From contig NZ_CP097116.1 of the NCBI RefSeq assembly GCF_024029335.1, positions 1,054,001-1,118,000 of the forward strand: a stretch of DNA of 64,000 bases, given 5' to 3'. The translations under genes were made by a program, and so were the position numbers. The DNA is from Fructilactobacillus myrtifloralis (GTDB lineage Bacteria; Bacillota; Bacilli; Lactobacillales; Lactobacillaceae). Below the pieces are notes generated by a model. It was not told the DNA's origin. It saw nothing but the letters and a program-made list of their open reading frames with translations, and searched no databases. Of the stretch, positions 30,978 to 38,859 are shown one piece after another. Positions within the stretch are counted from its first letter, which is position 1, and every line of letters starts with the position of its first letter.

Positions 30978-31006
30978 TAAGCATAGACCGACTGAGGAGA
31001 ATGAAT

Positions 31007-32005
31007 ATGTTTAAAATAACTGTGTATAACGTACGTGAGGTCGAAACCCCACTGTTTGAAAAACTTAATAAAGATGACTATGACTTAACGTTGGTAGCGG
31101 AACGGCTCACGCTGGATAACGTGGATCGGGCCGAATGTGCCAATGCAGTTCTGATTACGGCCTTTGATGATTGTGATGCCGAAGTGGTTGAACAGCTAGC
31201 TAATGCGGGCGTGAAGTACATTTACACCCGGGTCGTGGGTGTGAATAACATTAACGTTAAGGCGGCTAGAAACCTGGGGATTCAGGTTGCCAACGTGCCG
31301 AACTACTCGCCACGTGCCGTGGCAGAGTTGTCCTTGACGCTTGGATTAACGTTATTTAGAAACGTGTCAAAGGCCAGCGTGAATACTCACGATGGTGATT
31401 TCCGTTTGTTGCCAACTTACTATGCCAATGAAATTCACAGTGCAACGGTCGGAATCATTGGGGCCGGTAAGATTGGGATGGCCGAAGCAAAGTTATACCG
31501 AGGCTTAGGTGCCAAGGTCGTGGCTTACAAACGGAACCCCGAACCAGATAATGACGTGGTTTCATTTGTGGATCTAGATACGTTGTTACGCACTTCTGAC
31601 ATTGTGTCACTCCACATTCCCTACATTCCGGGGCAAACTGGAAAGTTAATTGGTGATCCTGAAATCGCGAAGATGAAGGATCAGGCTATTTTGGTGAACA
31701 CCGCCCGGGGGCAAGTCGTTGATAACCAGGCGGTGGCGGATGCGGTTCGTAATTCGCACCTCGGTGGTTACGGAACGGATGTAATTTTGGACGAAGATGC
31801 CATCATCGGGAAACAATTCGATTCCCTGGATGACTTGCCGAACCCCCTTAATCTAGAGTTAATGAAAAACTATCCTAACGTCTTGGTAACTCCGCACATG
31901 GGCTTCTTTACTGAACCAGCCGTTGAAGACATGATTCGGATTAGTTTTGAAAACTTTGCTAACACATTAACGAAGGGTGCACCATTGTACCCAGTAAACG
32001 AATAG
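31007..32005 (+). CDS. D-2-hydroxyacid dehydrogenase (D-lactate dehydrogenase family), copy 1
   Basis: This 332-residue NAD-dependent dehydrogenase has the Rossmann motif GIIGAGKIGMAEAKLY, the cofactor region SLHIPYIPGQTG, catalytic Arg in LVNTARGQ, Glu in the VILDEDA segment and His in TPHMGFFTE. The family reduces pyruvate or branched 2-keto acids to D-hydroxy acids. The ATG at 31007 lies six bases after GAGGAGA; an upstream ATG at 31001 touches that ribosome site. It is the first gene of a four-gene plus-strand operon and is followed at 13 bases by a paralog. Confidence 0.9.
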   Translation: MFKITVYNVREVETPLFEKLNKDDYDLTLVAERLTLDNVDRAECANAVLITAFDDCDAEVVEQLANAGVKYIYTRVVGVNNINVKAARNLGIQVANVPNYSPRAVAELSLTLGLTLFRNVSKASVNTHDGDFRLLPTYYANEIHSATVGIIGAGKIGMAEAKLYRGLGAKVVAYKRNPEPDNDVVSFVDLDTLLRTSDIVSLHIPYIPGQTGKLIGDPEIAKMKDQAILVNTARGQVVDNQAVADAVRNSHLGGYGTDVILDEDAIIGKQFDSLDDLPNPLNLELMKNYPNVLVTPHMGFFTEPAVEDMIRISFENFANTLTKGAPLYPVNE

Positions 32006-32018
32006 AAGGGGATTAAGC

Positions 32019-33011
32019 ATGGCTAAAATTACGGTTTATAACGTTCGTGACTTTGAAAAACCGCTGTATCAGGAACTCAACCACGATCGCTTTGAATTAA
32101 AATTAATGGAAGAACCATTGACGGCGGACAACGTTGAAACTGCTAACGGGTCAGTCGGCGTTTTAATCGATGGGACGACTAATGCGGATGCAGAATTATT
32201 GGCAGCGCTCAAGGGATTGGGCATCAAGTACTGCTTTACCCGCTTTGTGGGTTACAACAACATTGATTTAGACGCTGCGAGTGCGCGTGACATTATGGTG
32301 GCCCGGGTTCCAAGTTACTCACCATACTCAGTGGCAGAATTAGCGTTGACGCTGGGCTTGGACCTGGTTCGCCACGTTACGGAAGCAACTGACAATACCA
32401 ACCAAGGTGATTTCTTACTGCATCAGGGGTACTTTGCCAACGAAATTGACCACTTAACGGTGGGAATCATTGGAGTGGGACACATGGGAGCAGCCGAGGC
32501 GAAGCTGTGGCACAACTTAGGCGCCGAAGTGTTAGGCTACCAACGCACGCCCAACGATAATCCCGACGTTGATTTTGTTTCCTTAAACGAATTGTTGATG
32601 CAATCAGACATCGTTTCAATCCATGTTCCTTATTTCCCAGGAGAAAACGACCTCATGATTGGGGCGATTGAAATTGGAAACATGAAGAATCAAGCTGTCC
32701 TCGTGAACACCGCCCGGGGTGAATTAATCGATACGGCTGCCGTGGCTGATGCCCTTGCTGATGGTAATCTAGCTGGTTATGCGGCTGACGTTATCCCAGA
32801 TGAAAATGCCATTGATGGCAAGCAGTTCGATAGTTTGGATGACATTCCGGATCCAGAATTACTGAGCTTGATGAAACACTACCCGAACGTGATTATTACC
32901 CCCCACATGGGTTATGACACGGAACCAGCTACTAAGGACATGATTAAAGTTAGTTTACAAAACTTTCAAGATGCCATTGATACTGGTGAAACTGAGAACC
33001 AAATTAAGTAG
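32019..33011 (+). CDS. D-2-hydroxyacid dehydrogenase, copy 2
   Basis: The 330-residue paralog of the preceding gene is full length, with GIIGVGHMGAAEAKLWHN, SIHVPYFPGEND, LVNTARGELID, DVIPDENA and TPHMGYDTEPA. The catalytic Arg, Glu and His are all kept, so both copies should be active, perhaps on different 2-keto acids (lactate versus hydroxyisocaproate-type). AAGGGGATT precedes the ATG. Confidence 0.9.
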   Translation: MAKITVYNVRDFEKPLYQELNHDRFELKLMEEPLTADNVETANGSVGVLIDGTTNADAELLAALKGLGIKYCFTRFVGYNNIDLDAASARDIMVARVPSYSPYSVAELALTLGLDLVRHVTEATDNTNQGDFLLHQGYFANEIDHLTVGIIGVGHMGAAEAKLWHNLGAEVLGYQRTPNDNPDVDFVSLNELLMQSDIVSIHVPYFPGENDLMIGAIEIGNMKNQAVLVNTARGELIDTAAVADALADGNLAGYAADVIPDENAIDGKQFDSLDDIPDPELLSLMKHYPNVIITPHMGYDTEPATKDMIKVSLQNFQDAIDTGETENQIK

Positions 33012-33022
33012 GAGGAACCCTC

Positions 33023-33628
33023 GTGAACACCCAATTATTAGATTTAATGAAGCAGCGGCGGACGATTTATCATTTGGGAAAAAACGTCCAGTTCGACCAA
33101 GCGGAGCTTTATCGCTACATTAAGGAAATTGTCCGCTATACTCCGTCAGCATTTAACAGTCAACCGGTCCGGGCCGTTGTGTTGTTTAACGAACACCACG
33201 CAGCGCTGTGGGACATCGTGGAAACCACCCTTGAAGAAAAGGTTGCCCCAGATGCCTTCTTACGGACGAAGGCCAAGATTAGTAGCTTTCGGGATGCCTA
33301 CGCTTCCATTTTGTTTTACACCGATATGGACGTTGTTAAGGACTATACGGATAATCCGGCGTTAGCTACCTATCAATATCAAGAATACAACTGGTCTGAA
33401 GAGGCGCAGGGGAACGCCCAATTTGCCGTGTGGACGGGACTCGAAGAAAACGGGTTGGGAGTAAACATTCAACACTACGATCCGTTGATTAATGCAGCGG
33501 TGGCTTCCCGGTTTGAGATTCCCGCTAGTTGGCAACTGCGCGCCGAAATGAACTTTGGTTCGATTGAAAAACCAGCGGACGCAAAGGAATTTATGGATGA
33601 TGAGGATCGCTTTAAGCTCTTTCAGTAG
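33023..33628 (+). CDS. Nitroreductase family protein (HBN-like)
   Basis: This 201-residue flavin oxidoreductase has the family opening LLDLMKQRRTIYHLGKNV, the FMN-binding RYTPSAFNSQPVRAVVL and WSEEAQGNAQFAVWTGLEENGLGVNIQHY. It resembles the fatty-acid-repression (HBN1) type. The start is GTG at 33023 with GGAGG seven bases upstream. Position in one operon with two hydroxyacid dehydrogenases suggests a role in NAD(P)H turnover. Confidence 0.88.
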   Translation: MNTQLLDLMKQRRTIYHLGKNVQFDQAELYRYIKEIVRYTPSAFNSQPVRAVVLFNEHHAALWDIVETTLEEKVAPDAFLRTKAKISSFRDAYASILFYTDMDVVKDYTDNPALATYQYQEYNWSEEAQGNAQFAVWTGLEENGLGVNIQHYDPLINAAVASRFEIPASWQLRAEMNFGSIEKPADAKEFMDDEDRFKLFQ

Positions 33629-33944: not shown

Positions 33945-35735
33945 ATGCGAAAGTTCCGTGAATGGGGCCTAGCTATGTTACTGATTGGTGGCGCAGCGGG
34001 CTTGATCATGTTAATGCAGTGGCAAAAGCATACCGTCATCCTCGGATACGATACGTTCTTTCATTTCAATCGAATTTATGATGCCGCCCAGCAGTTGCAA
34101 ACGGGGCGGTTTAACTACTTCATGAGTAACTACGGATACCAACAATCGGGCCAAATGATTAATGCCCTCTATGGACCGTACTTTGCGTATGGATTAGGGC
34201 TCCTGTTGTGGCTAACTGGTAGTTGGTTTAGCTTTCAACTAGTGACCGGCACCCTAATTTTAGTGGGGGCGGGAGTTAGTGCCTGGGTGCTATTTTGCCG
34301 GTTGCACGTGAAGCGGTCCTTAGCAATCCTGGGAGCCCTCATTTATTTAGGGCAGAATTTTATTACATACTGGATCACGAGCGCCGCCTTTCTGGATTGG
34401 GGCGCGATGATACTGCCCCTGGCAGTTTTAATGGGCTTAGGCTTATTGGATGGGCGTCCTGCTAAAATATCATGGGGACTCGGAATGGTCATTGCAATTT
34501 TAATTGAAATGCACACCTTGAGTGCCGTGATGACCTGTTTGTTGTTGATTCCCTTTGCCCTAGTTGGCTGGTGGCGCTCGAAAACGAAGTGGCGCTACCT
34601 TGGACGCTTAGGGTTAAATGCGCTTGGAACGCTTGTGCTAACTGCTAATTACCTAGTGGTATTTGTGAACGTGATGGTGCATAACCGCTTAGTGGCACCG
34701 TTTGCCGTGAAGAACTTAGCCCAGGGGGCCATGCATTTTTTAAGTCCGAATTGGATGCAGGCCGACCTTGGAGTCGTGTTTATCGTAATTATTAGTGGGC
34801 AAATTGCCTTGTTACTGTTAGTGCGTCCGCAGCGGCGCTTAAACTACTTTCTAACTGGAATTGGGCTCTTCTTTTTCTACATTTCCTCAAATCTCTTTCC
34901 CTGGCGGTTAGTGGGGCGGCACTTGCCGTTCTTAAACCATTTTCTCCAGTTTCCCTCCCGCTTTTTTTCGTTTGCAGCCTTATTAATTCTGGCGGGCTTT
35001 TTAATGTCACTCACAACCGTTTTGGCCACGCCCAAGTGGCAGTGGGGGCATGGGTCTGTGTATGCTCTGGTGGGGTTGCTAGCCGTCATGACCGTGATGT
35101 TAGGGATGCGCAATGTGAAATTTCAAGCCGATAATAACTGGCACGGACAGACCGAACCACCCCAAGTCGGGGTTTATACTCCGGTCAAGCATCGTCACGA
35201 TTATTACCAACCGGGAGTTACCAACGCCCGGCTCAAAGCGGACTTTGCCAGTTCTGATCTGAGTAAGCCGTTACTAGATGAACGACGGGGGATTACCGAC
35301 TATTTACCTAATAACAGTGGGCGTGCCAACGTTCGGCACTTACAAACGCAGTATCAAACCCAAATCATGCCACGGCCGTCCCGCTTTACCAAGCACGTTG
35401 ATCGGCAGGGACAGTTACACGTGGCCTGGCGCGCACCTCAGTCTGCGGTGACCACCATTCCGGTAGTGGCCTATCACGATACGCGGGTTCGGTTGAACGG
35501 GCGTCCGTTACAGCGGGGACAACGTGCGGATGCGAACCACTTTACGATAACTGAGATTGGCGCAATTCAGGTGGCCACGCGGTCAGGAACCAATCAGGCA
35601 ACGGTCGCTTATCACCAAGCTGCGTGGATTACAGCAGCTGGATTAATTTCACTGGGAGCCTGGTTCCTGGTGTTGGTTGGAGGACTATGGTTGTGCATAC
35701 GGCACCTGCTCCAGCGTTGCTGCGATTGGGAGTAA
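33945..35735 (+). CDS. YfhO/GT-C-like multi-pass membrane protein
   Basis: The 596-residue protein has about 12 membrane segments to residue 385, then a soluble outer domain (390-565) and a last helix. The first external loop ILGYDTFFHFNRIYDAAQQL holds the acidic residue typical of GT-C enzymes. It is similar in layout to the 29066 protein and more distantly to YfhO at 39580. A lipid-linked sugar transferase acting on teichoic acid or polysaccharide is likely; the substrate is unknown. The ATG follows AAAGGAGG. Confidence 0.75.
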   Translation: MRKFREWGLAMLLIGGAAGLIMLMQWQKHTVILGYDTFFHFNRIYDAAQQLQTGRFNYFMSNYGYQQSGQMINALYGPYFAYGLGLLLWLTGSWFSFQLVTGTLILVGAGVSAWVLFCRLHVKRSLAILGALIYLGQNFITYWITSAAFLDWGAMILPLAVLMGLGLLDGRPAKISWGLGMVIAILIEMHTLSAVMTCLLLIPFALVGWWRSKTKWRYLGRLGLNALGTLVLTANYLVVFVNVMVHNRLVAPFAVKNLAQGAMHFLSPNWMQADLGVVFIVIISGQIALLLLVRPQRRLNYFLTGIGLFFFYISSNLFPWRLVGRHLPFLNHFLQFPSRFFSFAALLILAGFLMSLTTVLATPKWQWGHGSVYALVGLLAVMTVMLGMRNVKFQADNNWHGQTEPPQVGVYTPVKHRHDYYQPGVTNARLKADFASSDLSKPLLDERRGITDYLPNNSGRANVRHLQTQYQTQIMPRPSRFTKHVDRQGQLHVAWRAPQSAVTTIPVVAYHDTRVRLNGRPLQRGQRADANHFTITEIGAIQVATRSGTNQATVAYHQAAWITAAGLISLGAWFLVLVGGLWLCIRHLLQRCCDWE

Positions 35736-35804
35736 CTAGGCTTTGAGCGCTAAATGTGCTAAAATAGCAAGCATATCACTGGAACGAAACGAGGAGTTAG
35801 TTTA

Positions 35805-36320
35805 ATGCAACGGTTATACTGGGATGCAATTAACATCAATGGCCAAAAGGTCTTTTATACGGTTACCGATGCGGGACTCAATTTTGTTAGTTCGCCCGAT
35901 TGTGGGGTTTCGCAGGTGCTTCGGTTTTATGCAGCACCGTTTGAATACGTCCATGATCACCAACAGACGGATGGGTACCGAAAAGCCCTGAAACGGTATT
36001 TGAAGGGGAAAAGCGAGCAATTTGGCTTCACCCTCGATTACTTTGTGGATGGGACTCCTCAACAAGAAGAGGTCTGGCAGCTGATTAGTGCAATTCCATA
36101 CGGAAAAACTCTGAAGCTGGCTGACCTTGCTGCACAATTACGCGTTGACCCAGCCACGGTGCGGGCGGCCATGCAGGCCTGTCCGCTGTGGTTAGTGGTT
36201 CCCCTCCATCGGGTGGTGGAACTAGGTGATGATCGTGGCTACCGTACCAACGCCGCCATGCGCACCTATTTGCGTAATCTGGAGCAAAGTCCAAAATCAG
36301 AGTTAAGGGAGTTATTATAA
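35805..36320 (+). CDS. O6-alkylguanine-DNA alkyltransferase-like protein lacking the catalytic cysteine
   Basis: In this 171-residue protein the C-terminal half aligns with Ogt/Ada-C: VWQLISAIPYGKTLKLADLA (helix-turn-helix lead-in), VRAAM (Arg finger region) and then VVPLHRVV where active enzymes have PCHRV. Residue 134 is Leu (codon CTC at 36204), so methyl transfer to Cys is impossible. An unrelated Cys lies at 126. Alkyltransferase-like (ATL) proteins have the same loss, usually Cys to Trp or Ala, and flag damage for nucleotide excision repair. An ATL-like damage sensor is my best guess. The start is ATG with AGGAG eight bases upstream; yjeM follows at 31 bases. Confidence 0.8.
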   Translation: MQRLYWDAININGQKVFYTVTDAGLNFVSSPDCGVSQVLRFYAAPFEYVHDHQQTDGYRKALKRYLKGKSEQFGFTLDYFVDGTPQQEEVWQLISAIPYGKTLKLADLAAQLRVDPATVRAAMQACPLWLVVPLHRVVELGDDRGYRTNAAMRTYLRNLEQSPKSELRELL

Positions 36321-36351
36321 CCGTCATTAACTTTGAGAGGAATTTAAACAG

Positions 36352-37818
36352 ATGAATAACCGAAAATTAACTTTAATTTCGTTAGTATTGATTATCTTTA
36401 CTTCGATTTTTAACTTTGTTAACATTCCGCGGGCCTTTTACTTAATGGGCTACGCTTCCATTATTTTTTATCTGATTGCAGCCGTTTGTTTTTTCCTACC
36501 GTTTGCGTTTATGGTGGCGGAGTTTGGGTCCGCATATCCTAGCGCCAAGGGGGGAATCTATACGTGGATGGCGGCGTCCGTTAACCCCCGGTATGCCTTT
36601 GTGGGGATTGTGATGTGGTATACCTCCTTCATTACGTGGATGCTAAATACCAGTTCCATTATCTGGATTCCGATCTCCACGGCCATCTTTGGGGTGGATA
36701 AAACCCAGAGTTGGCATCTGTTTGGACTTAACGACGTCCAGACGTTGGGGATCTTGGCAGTGGCCCTGGTGGCGCTCGTGACTTTTGTGGCTAGCCGGGG
36801 ATTAAAGCAGTTTAAACTGATTACCTCCATTGGGGGTACCGCCATGTTACTGGCCAGCTTTATTTTGATTGTGGGGGGCAGTATCATCCTGCTCTTAAAC
36901 GGGCATCCCCTTCAACCGTTGAGCTTGCTGAGCTTCTTTAAATCACCTAATCCAGACTACCAAACGGGAATTGCCGTGCTCGGTTTTTCCGTTTATGCAA
37001 TCTTTGCCTTTGGGGGGATTGAAATTATTAGTGGGCTGGTTGATCAAACCAAGAATCCCCAAAAGACCTTCCCCCGGGGGATTGCGATTAGTGCTAGTTT
37101 AATTACGATTGTTTATGCCCTCGGGATCTTTGTAACGGGGATGTTTACCAACTGGAACCAGGTCTTTAATGCCAATGGGGGTCACCACGTCAACATTGGA
37201 AACGAAGCCTTTATTGCCATGAATAACTTTGGTTATCAATTAGGACTAGCGCTGCACTATCCCCATGGGGTTGCCGTTCAAATGGGCCTCTGGGTGGCGC
37301 GCTACATCGGCTTATCCATGTTCTTGGCTCTGATGGGGGCCTTTACGACGGTGGTCTTTTCGCCAATTAAGCAACTAGTCGAAGGAACGCCGGCGCACAT
37401 GTGGCCAGCGTGGTTACGAAAAGTGAAACAGGACTTACCGGTGAACGCCATGAAGGTGCAAGCCCTCATTGTGATGGCCTTCATTTTACTGGTCTCCTTT
37501 GGCGGAAAAGACGCCAAAATGTTCTTCCAGATTGTTGTTTCAATGACAAACGTTTCAATGTCACTCCCATACCTGTTTGTGGCCTTTGCGTTTTGGCAGT
37601 TTCGCAAGAAACGGATTGCTCATCCCTTCGTGTTCTTTAAGAGCTATCCCGTGGCGCGTTTAGCGTCGATCGTGGTCTTAGTAACCGTTGGGGCGGCAAT
37701 CTTGTTTACCTTGATTGCACCGGTGATGAGCGGGCAGTGGTCCACTACGATGTGGATGATTCTTGGTCCCGTCCTCTTTATTACGGTGGCGCTGATTTGG
37801 TCGCGAAAAACCGACTAA
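36352..37818 (+). CDS. yjeM: APC-family transporter YjeM
   Basis: This 488-residue, 12-14-segment member of the glutamate/GABA antiporter branch of the APC superfamily follows E. coli YjeM closely. Examples are LISLVLIIFTSIFNFVNIP, AFYLMGYASI, AEFGSAYPSAKGGIYTWM, FAFGGIEIISGLVDQTKNP and RYIGLSMFLALMGAF. The substrate of YjeM itself is not firmly known. AGAGGA precedes the ATG. It is probably co-transcribed with the Ogt-like gene. Confidence 0.88.
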   Translation: MNNRKLTLISLVLIIFTSIFNFVNIPRAFYLMGYASIIFYLIAAVCFFLPFAFMVAEFGSAYPSAKGGIYTWMAASVNPRYAFVGIVMWYTSFITWMLNTSSIIWIPISTAIFGVDKTQSWHLFGLNDVQTLGILAVALVALVTFVASRGLKQFKLITSIGGTAMLLASFILIVGGSIILLLNGHPLQPLSLLSFFKSPNPDYQTGIAVLGFSVYAIFAFGGIEIISGLVDQTKNPQKTFPRGIAISASLITIVYALGIFVTGMFTNWNQVFNANGGHHVNIGNEAFIAMNNFGYQLGLALHYPHGVAVQMGLWVARYIGLSMFLALMGAFTTVVFSPIKQLVEGTPAHMWPAWLRKVKQDLPVNAMKVQALIVMAFILLVSFGGKDAKMFFQIVVSMTNVSMSLPYLFVAFAFWQFRKKRIAHPFVFFKSYPVARLASIVVLVTVGAAILFTLIAPVMSGQWSTTMWMILGPVLFITVALIWSRKTD

Positions 37819-37838
37819 CTTATTTAAATTACAGAACG

Positions 37839-37877
37839 AAAAAAGCTTGTCAGTTGGGATTTCTGACAAGCTTTTTT
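37839..37877. terminator. Bidirectional terminator
   Basis: Perfect stem AAAAAAGCTTGTCAG / CTGACAAGCTTTTTT between convergent yjeM and the NmrA-like gene. Confidence 0.93.
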
Positions 37878-37911
37878 GTATCCAAATCAGGACAGTTCCC
37901 ACCAAGTTTAG

Positions 37912-38859
37912 TTACAACAGGTATCCCGGCTTGGGCGTCAACAAGTCCCGAACTTGCTCCGTCAAGCTCGGCAGCGGTTGGCCAAGCAGCCGCGGGAGAT
38001 CCTGAGATTGGGACTGGATGTCGGCAATCTCTTGGTGACTCATTCCCATTTGCACCGGTTGGTGGTCAATCTGTGGTCCGAAGGCGCCAGCACGAAGTAG
38101 TTGCTGCCAATTGGTTAGGAACTGAGTGGTGGTGGCATTCACCTTTTTGTCCTTTAACCAGCGTTGGTACTCAGCTGGGGTTACCTGCTGCAATGCTAGT
38201 TTGGTACCCGTAACGGTCTGCACCGCTGCCACTAAATCAGTATACGTGTGAAAGGCCCCGGTTAGTTCGTAAACGGGTTGCAATTCCTCAGTGGCCTTGC
38301 TAAGGAGAACGGCAGCTGCTTGGGCGTAATACCGTTCCGCTGCCCACCCGATGACCTGGTCGCCCGCCGTAGTAACGAGGGGTTGGTGTTGCTGGAGGGC
38401 GGTTTTAAGCGCTGGTTGTTCGTTTTCTAAGTAGCAGTTATTTCGCAAAAAGGAGTGAGGCACAGCTGTGGCTGCAATTAGTTGTTCGGTTTTGCGGTGG
38501 TCGTCAATCAGGGGATTATGCCACTGATCAGCATGAAAGAAACTGGTGTAACCCAGCCACTGGACGTGATTGTCAACCGCAGCCGTCACCACGTTTTGAT
38601 GTTGAGTTAAGCGCGAAACGGTTTCATCGGGATGAGCTGAAAGCATGAGGACCCGGTCAACCTCATGCAGGGCGGTTTGGAGGCTTGCGGGATTAGTATA
38701 ATCCCCCTGCCGGATGTCTAGGGCAGCCGGAAACAGGGCCTGCGCCTTGGTTAAATCATGGGTAATGATGACAATGTCTTGAAAGGGAACCAGGGTAAGT
38801 AAGTGATTCACTACCAACTGACCCAAATGACTGGTCGCGGCCGTAACTGCGTATTTCAT
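37912..38859 (-). CDS. NmrA-like NAD(P)-binding protein (quinone oxidoreductase 2-like)
   Basis: The 315-residue atypical SDR has the N-terminal nucleotide site AVTAATSHLGQLVV, where relatives have GATGxLG, so the first Gly is replaced. LDIRQGDYTNPASLQTAL and VDRVLMLSAHP follow the QorB/YtfG pattern, with LGYTSFFHADQ. There is no Tyr-Lys pair, in line with NmrA-like sensors or quinone reductases. A ribosome site (AGGAGG) precedes the ATG. It is convergent with yjeM. Confidence 0.75.
   Translation of the reverse strand: MKYAVTAATSHLGQLVVNHLLTLVPFQDIVIITHDLTKAQALFPAALDIRQGDYTNPASLQTALHEVDRVLMLSAHPDETVSRLTQHQNVVTAAVDNHVQWLGYTSFFHADQWHNPLIDDHRKTEQLIAATAVPHSFLRNNCYLENEQPALKTALQQHQPLVTTAGDQVIGWAAERYYAQAAAVLLSKATEELQPVYELTGAFHTYTDLVAAVQTVTGTKLALQQVTPAEYQRWLKDKKVNATTTQFLTNWQQLLRAGAFGPQIDHQPVQMGMSHQEIADIQSQSQDLPRLLGQPLPSLTEQVRDLLTPKPGYLL

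Follow-up and report, generated by a model that had tools for sequence, protein, structure and literature searches.

Among described proteins, the closest to the one treated here are the Ogt/AGT enzymes (methylated-DNA--[protein]-cysteine S-methyltransferases; PF01035, TIGR00589) and the alkyltransferase-like proteins (ATLs). The roles of the Ogt residues (nucleophilic Cys of the PCHR motif, His, Glu, Arg finger, base-flipping Tyr and Asn hinge) have been assigned as given in the sections used here of a 2023 review (PMC10779285). According to the same sections, the N-terminal domain of Ogt is not as conserved as the C-terminal one, and ATLs have no N-domain, keep the HTH, the Arg finger and the Tyr, and in most cases carry Trp in place of the Cys. 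For the lineage of Fructilactobacillus and Apilactobacillus, a large gene loss and a domain-wise loss of adhE have been reported (PMC11269746, 2024), and the terms "ogt", "methyltransferase" and "DNA repair" do not occur in the main text of that paper.

We have analysed a window (the whole stretch of 64,000 nucleotides) of the Fructilactobacillus myrtifloralis genome, which consists of 1,458,675 bases in a single contig. A gene in this window encodes an Ogt-like protein that lacks the catalytic Cys, should be repair-dead judging from its sequence, and differs from the ATLs. In the following, G-codes denote genomes (the window genome is G000), L-codes denote loci, g1 is Fructilactobacillus, and the other g-codes are other genera.

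The Ogt-like gene and its active-site positions

Features of the locus are listed in Table 1. The window protein matches PF01035 in residues 86-160 with 43.3 bits, above the Pfam cut-off of 27, and falls just short of the cut-off of the NCBIfam ogt model, TIGR00589. No Pfam match was found for its N-terminal half in a Pfam scan, and Methyltransf_1N matches were found in four of six relatives scanned, one of them above the cut-off. The only significant match in PHROGs (E 2.4e-10, residues 56-147) is to a "DNA methyltransferase" family and tells nothing beyond Ogt. A structure predicted from two rows, the window protein and that of F. sanfranciscensis DSM 20451 (L014), is unusable (mean pLDDT 46.1, pTM 0.36).

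Table 1. Features of the Ogt-like gene, its product and its neighbours, in positions of the window.
Feature	Position	Strand	Basis or remark
Nitroreductase-family gene	33023-33628	+	PF00881; neighbour common to g1, g24 and g36 loci
Cys-less Ogt-like protein, 171 aa	35805-36320	+	Intact ATG ORF; PF01035 E 3.3e-11; TIGR00589 42.4 bits against 46.4
N-terminal domain, residues 1-82	35805-36050	+	Better conserved half within the five-genus Cys-less group
HTH region, residues 105-124	36117-36176	+	Family alignment
Leu105, at the position of the base-flipping Tyr (human Y114)	36117-36119	+	MAFFT and hmmalign alignments
Arg-finger column: Ala117 (MAFFT) or Arg120 (hmmalign)	36153-36155 or 36162-36164	+	
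Cys126, at the Asn-hinge position	36180-36182	+	MAFFT and hmmalign alignments
Leu134 (codon CTC; motif PLHRV), replacing the nucleophilic Cys	36204-36206	+	Translation, family alignment
His135 and Arg136	36207-36212	+	In 96/96 family rows, all picked by the PxHR pattern
Glu160, equivalent of the catalytic-triad Glu	36282-36284	+	In 96/96 family rows
yjeM-type amino acid transporter	36352-37818	+	31 bases downstream; NF011775 equivalog, 639.2 bits (cut-off 400); PF13520

A homologous C-domain by sequence, the two-domain layout, the IPYG and PxHRV motifs and the His/Arg/Glu network connect the protein with Ogt/AGT, and its syntenic ortholog in G009 has the full active site. The replacement of the nucleophile by Leu134, proposed by an earlier sequence-only reading, was confirmed by translation and alignment. 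A sequencing error at this codon, which that reading had named as a possible refutation, is ruled out by the Leu found in seven other species and the Met in one. The replacement is one of several differences from Ogt/AGT, for the Tyr and the Asn hinge are absent as well (Leu105 and Cys126), as are the loop glycines described below.

The sequence-only reading also held that the HTH and the Arg finger were kept, which the alignments do not bear out. In addition to the loss of the Tyr at residue 105, MAFFT places Ala117 in the Arg-finger column (human R128) and sets Arg120 opposite a small residue of the Cys enzymes. For G000 and G006, hmmalign with a Cys-only profile does bring Arg120 into the finger column, which requires a three-residue gap in the recognition helix, and the phmmer alignment of the window protein to Ada opens an identical gap. 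The G006 ortholog, 96% identical, is the only other Cys-less ortholog of the genus with Arg there in either alignment, and neither MAFFT nor hmmalign finds it in the remaining seven. By these alignments, the Arg finger is ambiguous in the window protein and its nearest sister, and missing from the majority of the genus orthologs.

An ortholog is present in all ten Fructilactobacillus genomes examined. The Leu, whose conservation in relatives the sequence-only reading had proposed to check, is found in eight of them, with Met in G008 and Cys in G009. Whole-gene dN/dS (Nei-Gojobori) is about 0.04-0.25 over eight species pairs, with dS near or at saturation in several, and that of the C-domain is 0.035-0.34. 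In the closest pair, G000-G006, the value is 0.25 for the N-half and 0.035 for the C-half. For yjeM the identical eight pairs give 0.015-0.09, lower than the Ogt-like gene in every pair compared. In g24, 40 of the 41 pairs with dS below 1.5 (of 91 pairs) have a dN/dS of 0.08-0.47; the pair G190-G239 has 0.80 at a dS of 0.02, which is uninformative. Judged by these ratios, the gene is under purifying selection in both halves, less strictly than yjeM, and the C-domain is therefore not free to drift.

Gene decay, already rejected in the sequence-only reading, is ruled out by the presence of the ortholog in ten of ten genomes, the intact ORFs and the low dN/dS. We give only a very slight chance to the gene being a remnant under relaxed constraint that has lost its function and is still present only because the loss is recent. 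The fast divergence of the C-domain, the two of 16 g24 genomes with no PF01035 match and the excess of dN/dS over that of yjeM would agree with such a remnant, but no internal stop occurs in the nine Cys-less orthologs of the genus, dN/dS is well under 1 save in one very close pair, and the gene is kept in the other 14 g24 genomes.

Residues, conservation and charge in the family

For comparison within Lactobacillaceae, 109 ORF hits were collected, of which 13 duplicated a gene already present in an overlapping locus; without these, 96 rows remained, and they were trimmed by the PxHR pattern, which every hit had. This set is a partial and biased sample (best-ranked places first, then a spread across genera) that spans 88 genomes, out of 291 with a match and 397 searched, and 22 genus codes, plus six second copies of Fructilactobacillus. 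All of the 64 Cys rows have the Tyr and the Asn hinge, and 60 have the Arg finger in the MAFFT alignment, with Gln in the other four. The 32 Cys-less rows, with Ser (10), Thr (10), Leu (8), Val (2), Met (1) or Asp (1) for Cys, have lost the Tyr in 29 cases and kept it in three; the Asn is kept in 21, and the Arg finger in six (MAFFT) or nine (hmmalign). In the 27 Cys-less rows of five genera (g1, g24, g32, g34 and g36; hereafter the five-genus group), the four invariant g14 glycines that align with residues 142, 144, 148 and 149 of the window protein are mostly lost; we take these glycines to belong to the lesion-pocket loop.

All 32 Cys-less rows retain the His, Arg and Glu of the former network, and this conservation might reflect residual chemistry. 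Together with the polar replacements of the Cys in g24, g27, g34, g36 and g37, it would suit a new chemistry in the same pocket, carried out by His/Glu/Arg with Ser, Thr or Asp in other genera and with Fructilactobacillus as a dead-end version. We see a slim chance for this, as the Leu, Met or Val of 11 rows cannot serve as a nucleophile, and in g24 Ser (7 rows) and Thr (7 rows) are mixed among close species.

The two domains differ in conservation between Cys and Cys-less proteins, as measured by identity to the 23 Cys proteins of g14. In 34 Cys rows from other genera (Fructilactobacillus left out), N-domain identity is 29.5% and C-domain identity 50.8%, and the N-domain is the higher in none of them. 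In the five-genus group, the N-domain is the higher in 26 of 27 rows, the exception being G044, while the Cys-bearing G009 is even (N 49, C 49). The conserved residues of the N-domain are W6, T19, G24, F27, P31, S36, F41, Y42, E47 and Y58. The Cys-like pattern is kept in the Ser rows of g37 (N 30, C 45.9%; two rows) and nearly so in g27 (N 29, C 35; three rows).

Net charge has changed as well. The mean for the C-domain is +5.5 among the 64 Cys rows and -1.9 among the 32 Cys-less ones. Because the rows are related by descent, P values of the charge comparisons are not independent tests. The C-domain value is -2.0 in the nine Cys-less Fructilactobacillus proteins, -4.3 in g24 and +2.3 to +4 in g27, g34 and g37. 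The N-half shifts in the opposite way and becomes less acidic, from -4.6 to -1.1. Since the flipping Tyr, the pocket loop and the basic charge have been lost, the window protein is a poor candidate for lesion binding.

These data bear on whether the protein is a lesion sensor of ATL type. The sequence-only reading had likened it to the ATLs, with Leu as a variant of the usual Trp or Ala, but it is not simply an ATL with that exchange. Such a sensor would bind O6-alkylguanine without repair and recruit nucleotide excision repair, with Leu taking the place of the usual Trp. Several points agree with it: the Cys is replaced within PxHRV, the Ogt-type domain and HTH region are kept by sequence, and the Asn hinge is missing in Fructilactobacillus, as in ATLs (E. 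coli ATL, S. pombe Atl1 and T. thermophilus TTHA1564). ATL-like states also exist nearby, in the Ser/Asp proteins of g37 and in G044 with Asp, all with Tyr and Arg kept, and some genomes carry only the Cys-less form. Unlike ATLs, however, the window protein has no Tyr and no secure Arg finger (lost in seven of nine orthologs), its loop glycines are gone, its C-domain is acidic overall, and 82 residues conserved family-wide precede the C-domain, forming the N-domain that ATLs lack in the sections used of PMC10779285. By the definition given there, the window protein is not an ATL, and we consider a sensor role quite unlikely.

The g37 proteins are a different case. Of their lower-scoring loci (L185-L204), 18 of 20 have the motif, with Ser in ten, Asp in six and Cys in two, and all 18 keep Tyr and Arg; the motif is found in 27 of 29 higher-scoring copies, always with Cys. 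The Ser/Asp homologs are from the same bacterial family as the window protein and likewise have the Cys of PxHRV replaced, but they differ from it in keeping Tyr and Arg (16/16), in a C-domain almost as well conserved as that of the Cys enzymes (45.9% identity, from two Ser rows, against 50.8%), and in having other neighbours. By these residues they are an ATL-type group. The literature matches listed, from a search mostly outside subscription journals, contain no report of such a group or of Cys-less Ogts in Lactobacillaceae.

The sequence-only reading had also suggested looking for a second intact ogt, and a PCHRV-type copy does exist in the window genome (C1:673508-673744). A second PF01035 protein with PCHRV or PCHRI is present in G000, G001, G002, G003, G005 and G006; the only PF01035 match is the Cys-less protein in G004, G007 and G008 and the Cys protein in G009. 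Of the 16 g24 genomes, 14 contain just one PF01035 match, the Cys-less protein, and two contain none. An extra PCHR copy was found in G040, G074, G340 and G071, and none in G044, G042 and G045. At a locus of G071 (L120, on C91), three Cys-less Ogt homologs stand in tandem (PTHRV, PSHRV and PTHRV); each has Ser in place of the Tyr and keeps the Arg, and the PCHR copy lies elsewhere in that genome.

In total, 20 sampled Cys-less genomes (the 14 of g24, G044, G042, G045, G004, G007 and G008) have no other PF01035 match. Because some genomes have only the Cys-less form, the protein is more than a spare copy accompanying an active enzyme. In 17 of the 20 it scores above the Pfam cut-off, and a PF01035 match alone would credit such genomes, too, with Ogt.

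Neighbours and loss of the catalytic Cys

The pairing with yjeM noted in the sequence-only reading was found in nine of ten genus genomes, eight Cys-less ones and the Cys-bearing G009, and failed in G004, where no yjeM match lies within the 10.5 kb examined at the locus. Because of the 31-base spacing, the two genes are probably co-transcribed; promoter and terminator scans of 35500-38000 gave no excess over shuffles. Downstream neighbours vary by genus (yjeM, bPH_2 membrane proteins, a nuclease-domain protein), and the context thus points to no single partner.

On the upstream side, a gene at 33945-35735 (+) encodes a hydrophobic-looking protein of 596 aa without a Pfam or NCBIfam match. It precedes the Ogt-like gene in nine of ten genus genomes, the window included, with 38-90% identity in the other eight, and changes faster than its neighbours. 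Two adjacent ORFs of one similarity cluster, 334 and 330 aa (31001-32005 and 32019-33011, +), lie upstream of the nitroreductase gene.

The yjeM link and the kept HTH region would accord with a regulator, in which the former repair HTH binds a specific DNA site and controls, for example, yjeM. Weak similarities to GntR in the window protein (E 0.061) and to a LacI type in a g32 relative (L063; E 0.065) lie in the same direction but far under the cut-offs. The net charge of the HTH stretch also speaks against a regulator: its mean is +2.2 in Cys rows but -1.3 in Fructilactobacillus and -2.6 in g24, with g34 retaining a basic HTH (+6). As, moreover, the downstream neighbours differ among genera and the recognition helix differs between close species in the family alignment, we consider a regulator unlikely.

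Relatives with Cys, which the sequence-only reading had listed as a possible refutation, do exist (G009 and 63 other family rows); they leave the Leu of the window protein unaffected and suggest that Cys is the ancestral state. In G009, the ortholog with Cys, Tyr, Arg and Asn all present lies between nitroreductase (upstream) and yjeM (downstream). YetF-type and NlpC/P60 neighbours, with Pfam names taken from g24 members, are common to G009, g24, g36 and g32, and g34 and g32 have two downstream neighbours in common. On the basis of these shared neighbours, the Cys-less proteins of g24, g36, g32 and g34 look like syntenic orthologs.

When the trait columns are left out of the protein tree, G009 falls with the Cys-less proteins of Fructilactobacillus (97/87; 86 in a quick tree). 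It also groups with the genus in a nitroreductase tree (99/98), which includes only seven of ten genus genomes and in which G009 has a long branch. The fewest unordered changes on the trees are three. A single Cys-less five-genus clade with G009 outside is not rejected by the AU test (p 0.136), and the count of losses therefore depends on the genus of G009, the synteny and the neighbour tree. From these comparisons, the Cys was likely lost in Fructilactobacillus after the split of G009, and separately elsewhere, provided that G009 did not regain the whole residue set. The syntenic ortholog of G044 (g36, L065), with Asp for Cys and both Tyr and Arg kept, may represent a stage on the way from Ogt to the stripped form; it clusters with g32 and g34 (99/99), both of which have lost the Tyr.

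A proposed non-repair role through the N-domain

The reading we prefer, with a probability of about 0.55, is that the window protein is a functional, selected, non-repair pseudoenzyme, which descends from a true Ogt that occupied this locus and acts via contacts of its N-domain. Since the N-domain remains the better conserved half, it is probably the part through which the protein acts. By sequence, the protein has lost the nucleophile, the flipping Tyr, the Asn hinge, the loop glycines and the net positive charge of the C-domain, and the majority of the genus orthologs have no Arg finger; what is retained is the N-domain and, from the former network, His, Arg and Glu. Such a protein is predicted to be unable to transfer alkyl groups and unlikely to flip or hold alkylated guanine. 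Its C-domain may persist as a structural core, and the function would reside in contacts, centred on the N-domain, to a protein or another ligand. An ancestral Ogt with two functions is the probable origin of this role, which would now be the sole one remaining.

We only infer the new role, because the conservation of the N-domain is also found in Cys-bearing relatives of the clade, as in G009. Some observations stand against the pseudoenzyme: in the pair G000-G006 the N-half has a higher dN/dS than the C-half, the C-domain itself is constrained, the change in charge extends to the N-half, the HTH of g34 is basic, and G044 has no shift toward the N-domain.

A wider form of this proposal, which we hold tentatively and at somewhat less than even odds, is that an Ogt with an N-domain function has been repeatedly stripped of its repair half in several genera of Lactobacillaceae, losing first the Cys and later the Tyr, the Arg finger, the pocket loop and the basic charge. 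G044, in which Asp has replaced the Cys but Tyr and Arg persist, would represent the first step. The process would have yielded a non-repair class distinct from the ATLs. ATLs tell us that a Cys-less Ogt can remain in DNA repair as a lesion sensor, and here the parts of the sensor are mostly gone too. The persistence of selection and the N-domain now being the better conserved half provide a testable case for a second function of Ogt. If the wider proposal is true, the ordinary Cys-bearing Ogts of this subfamily (g14 and G009) would also have a second function, which has been unrecognised.
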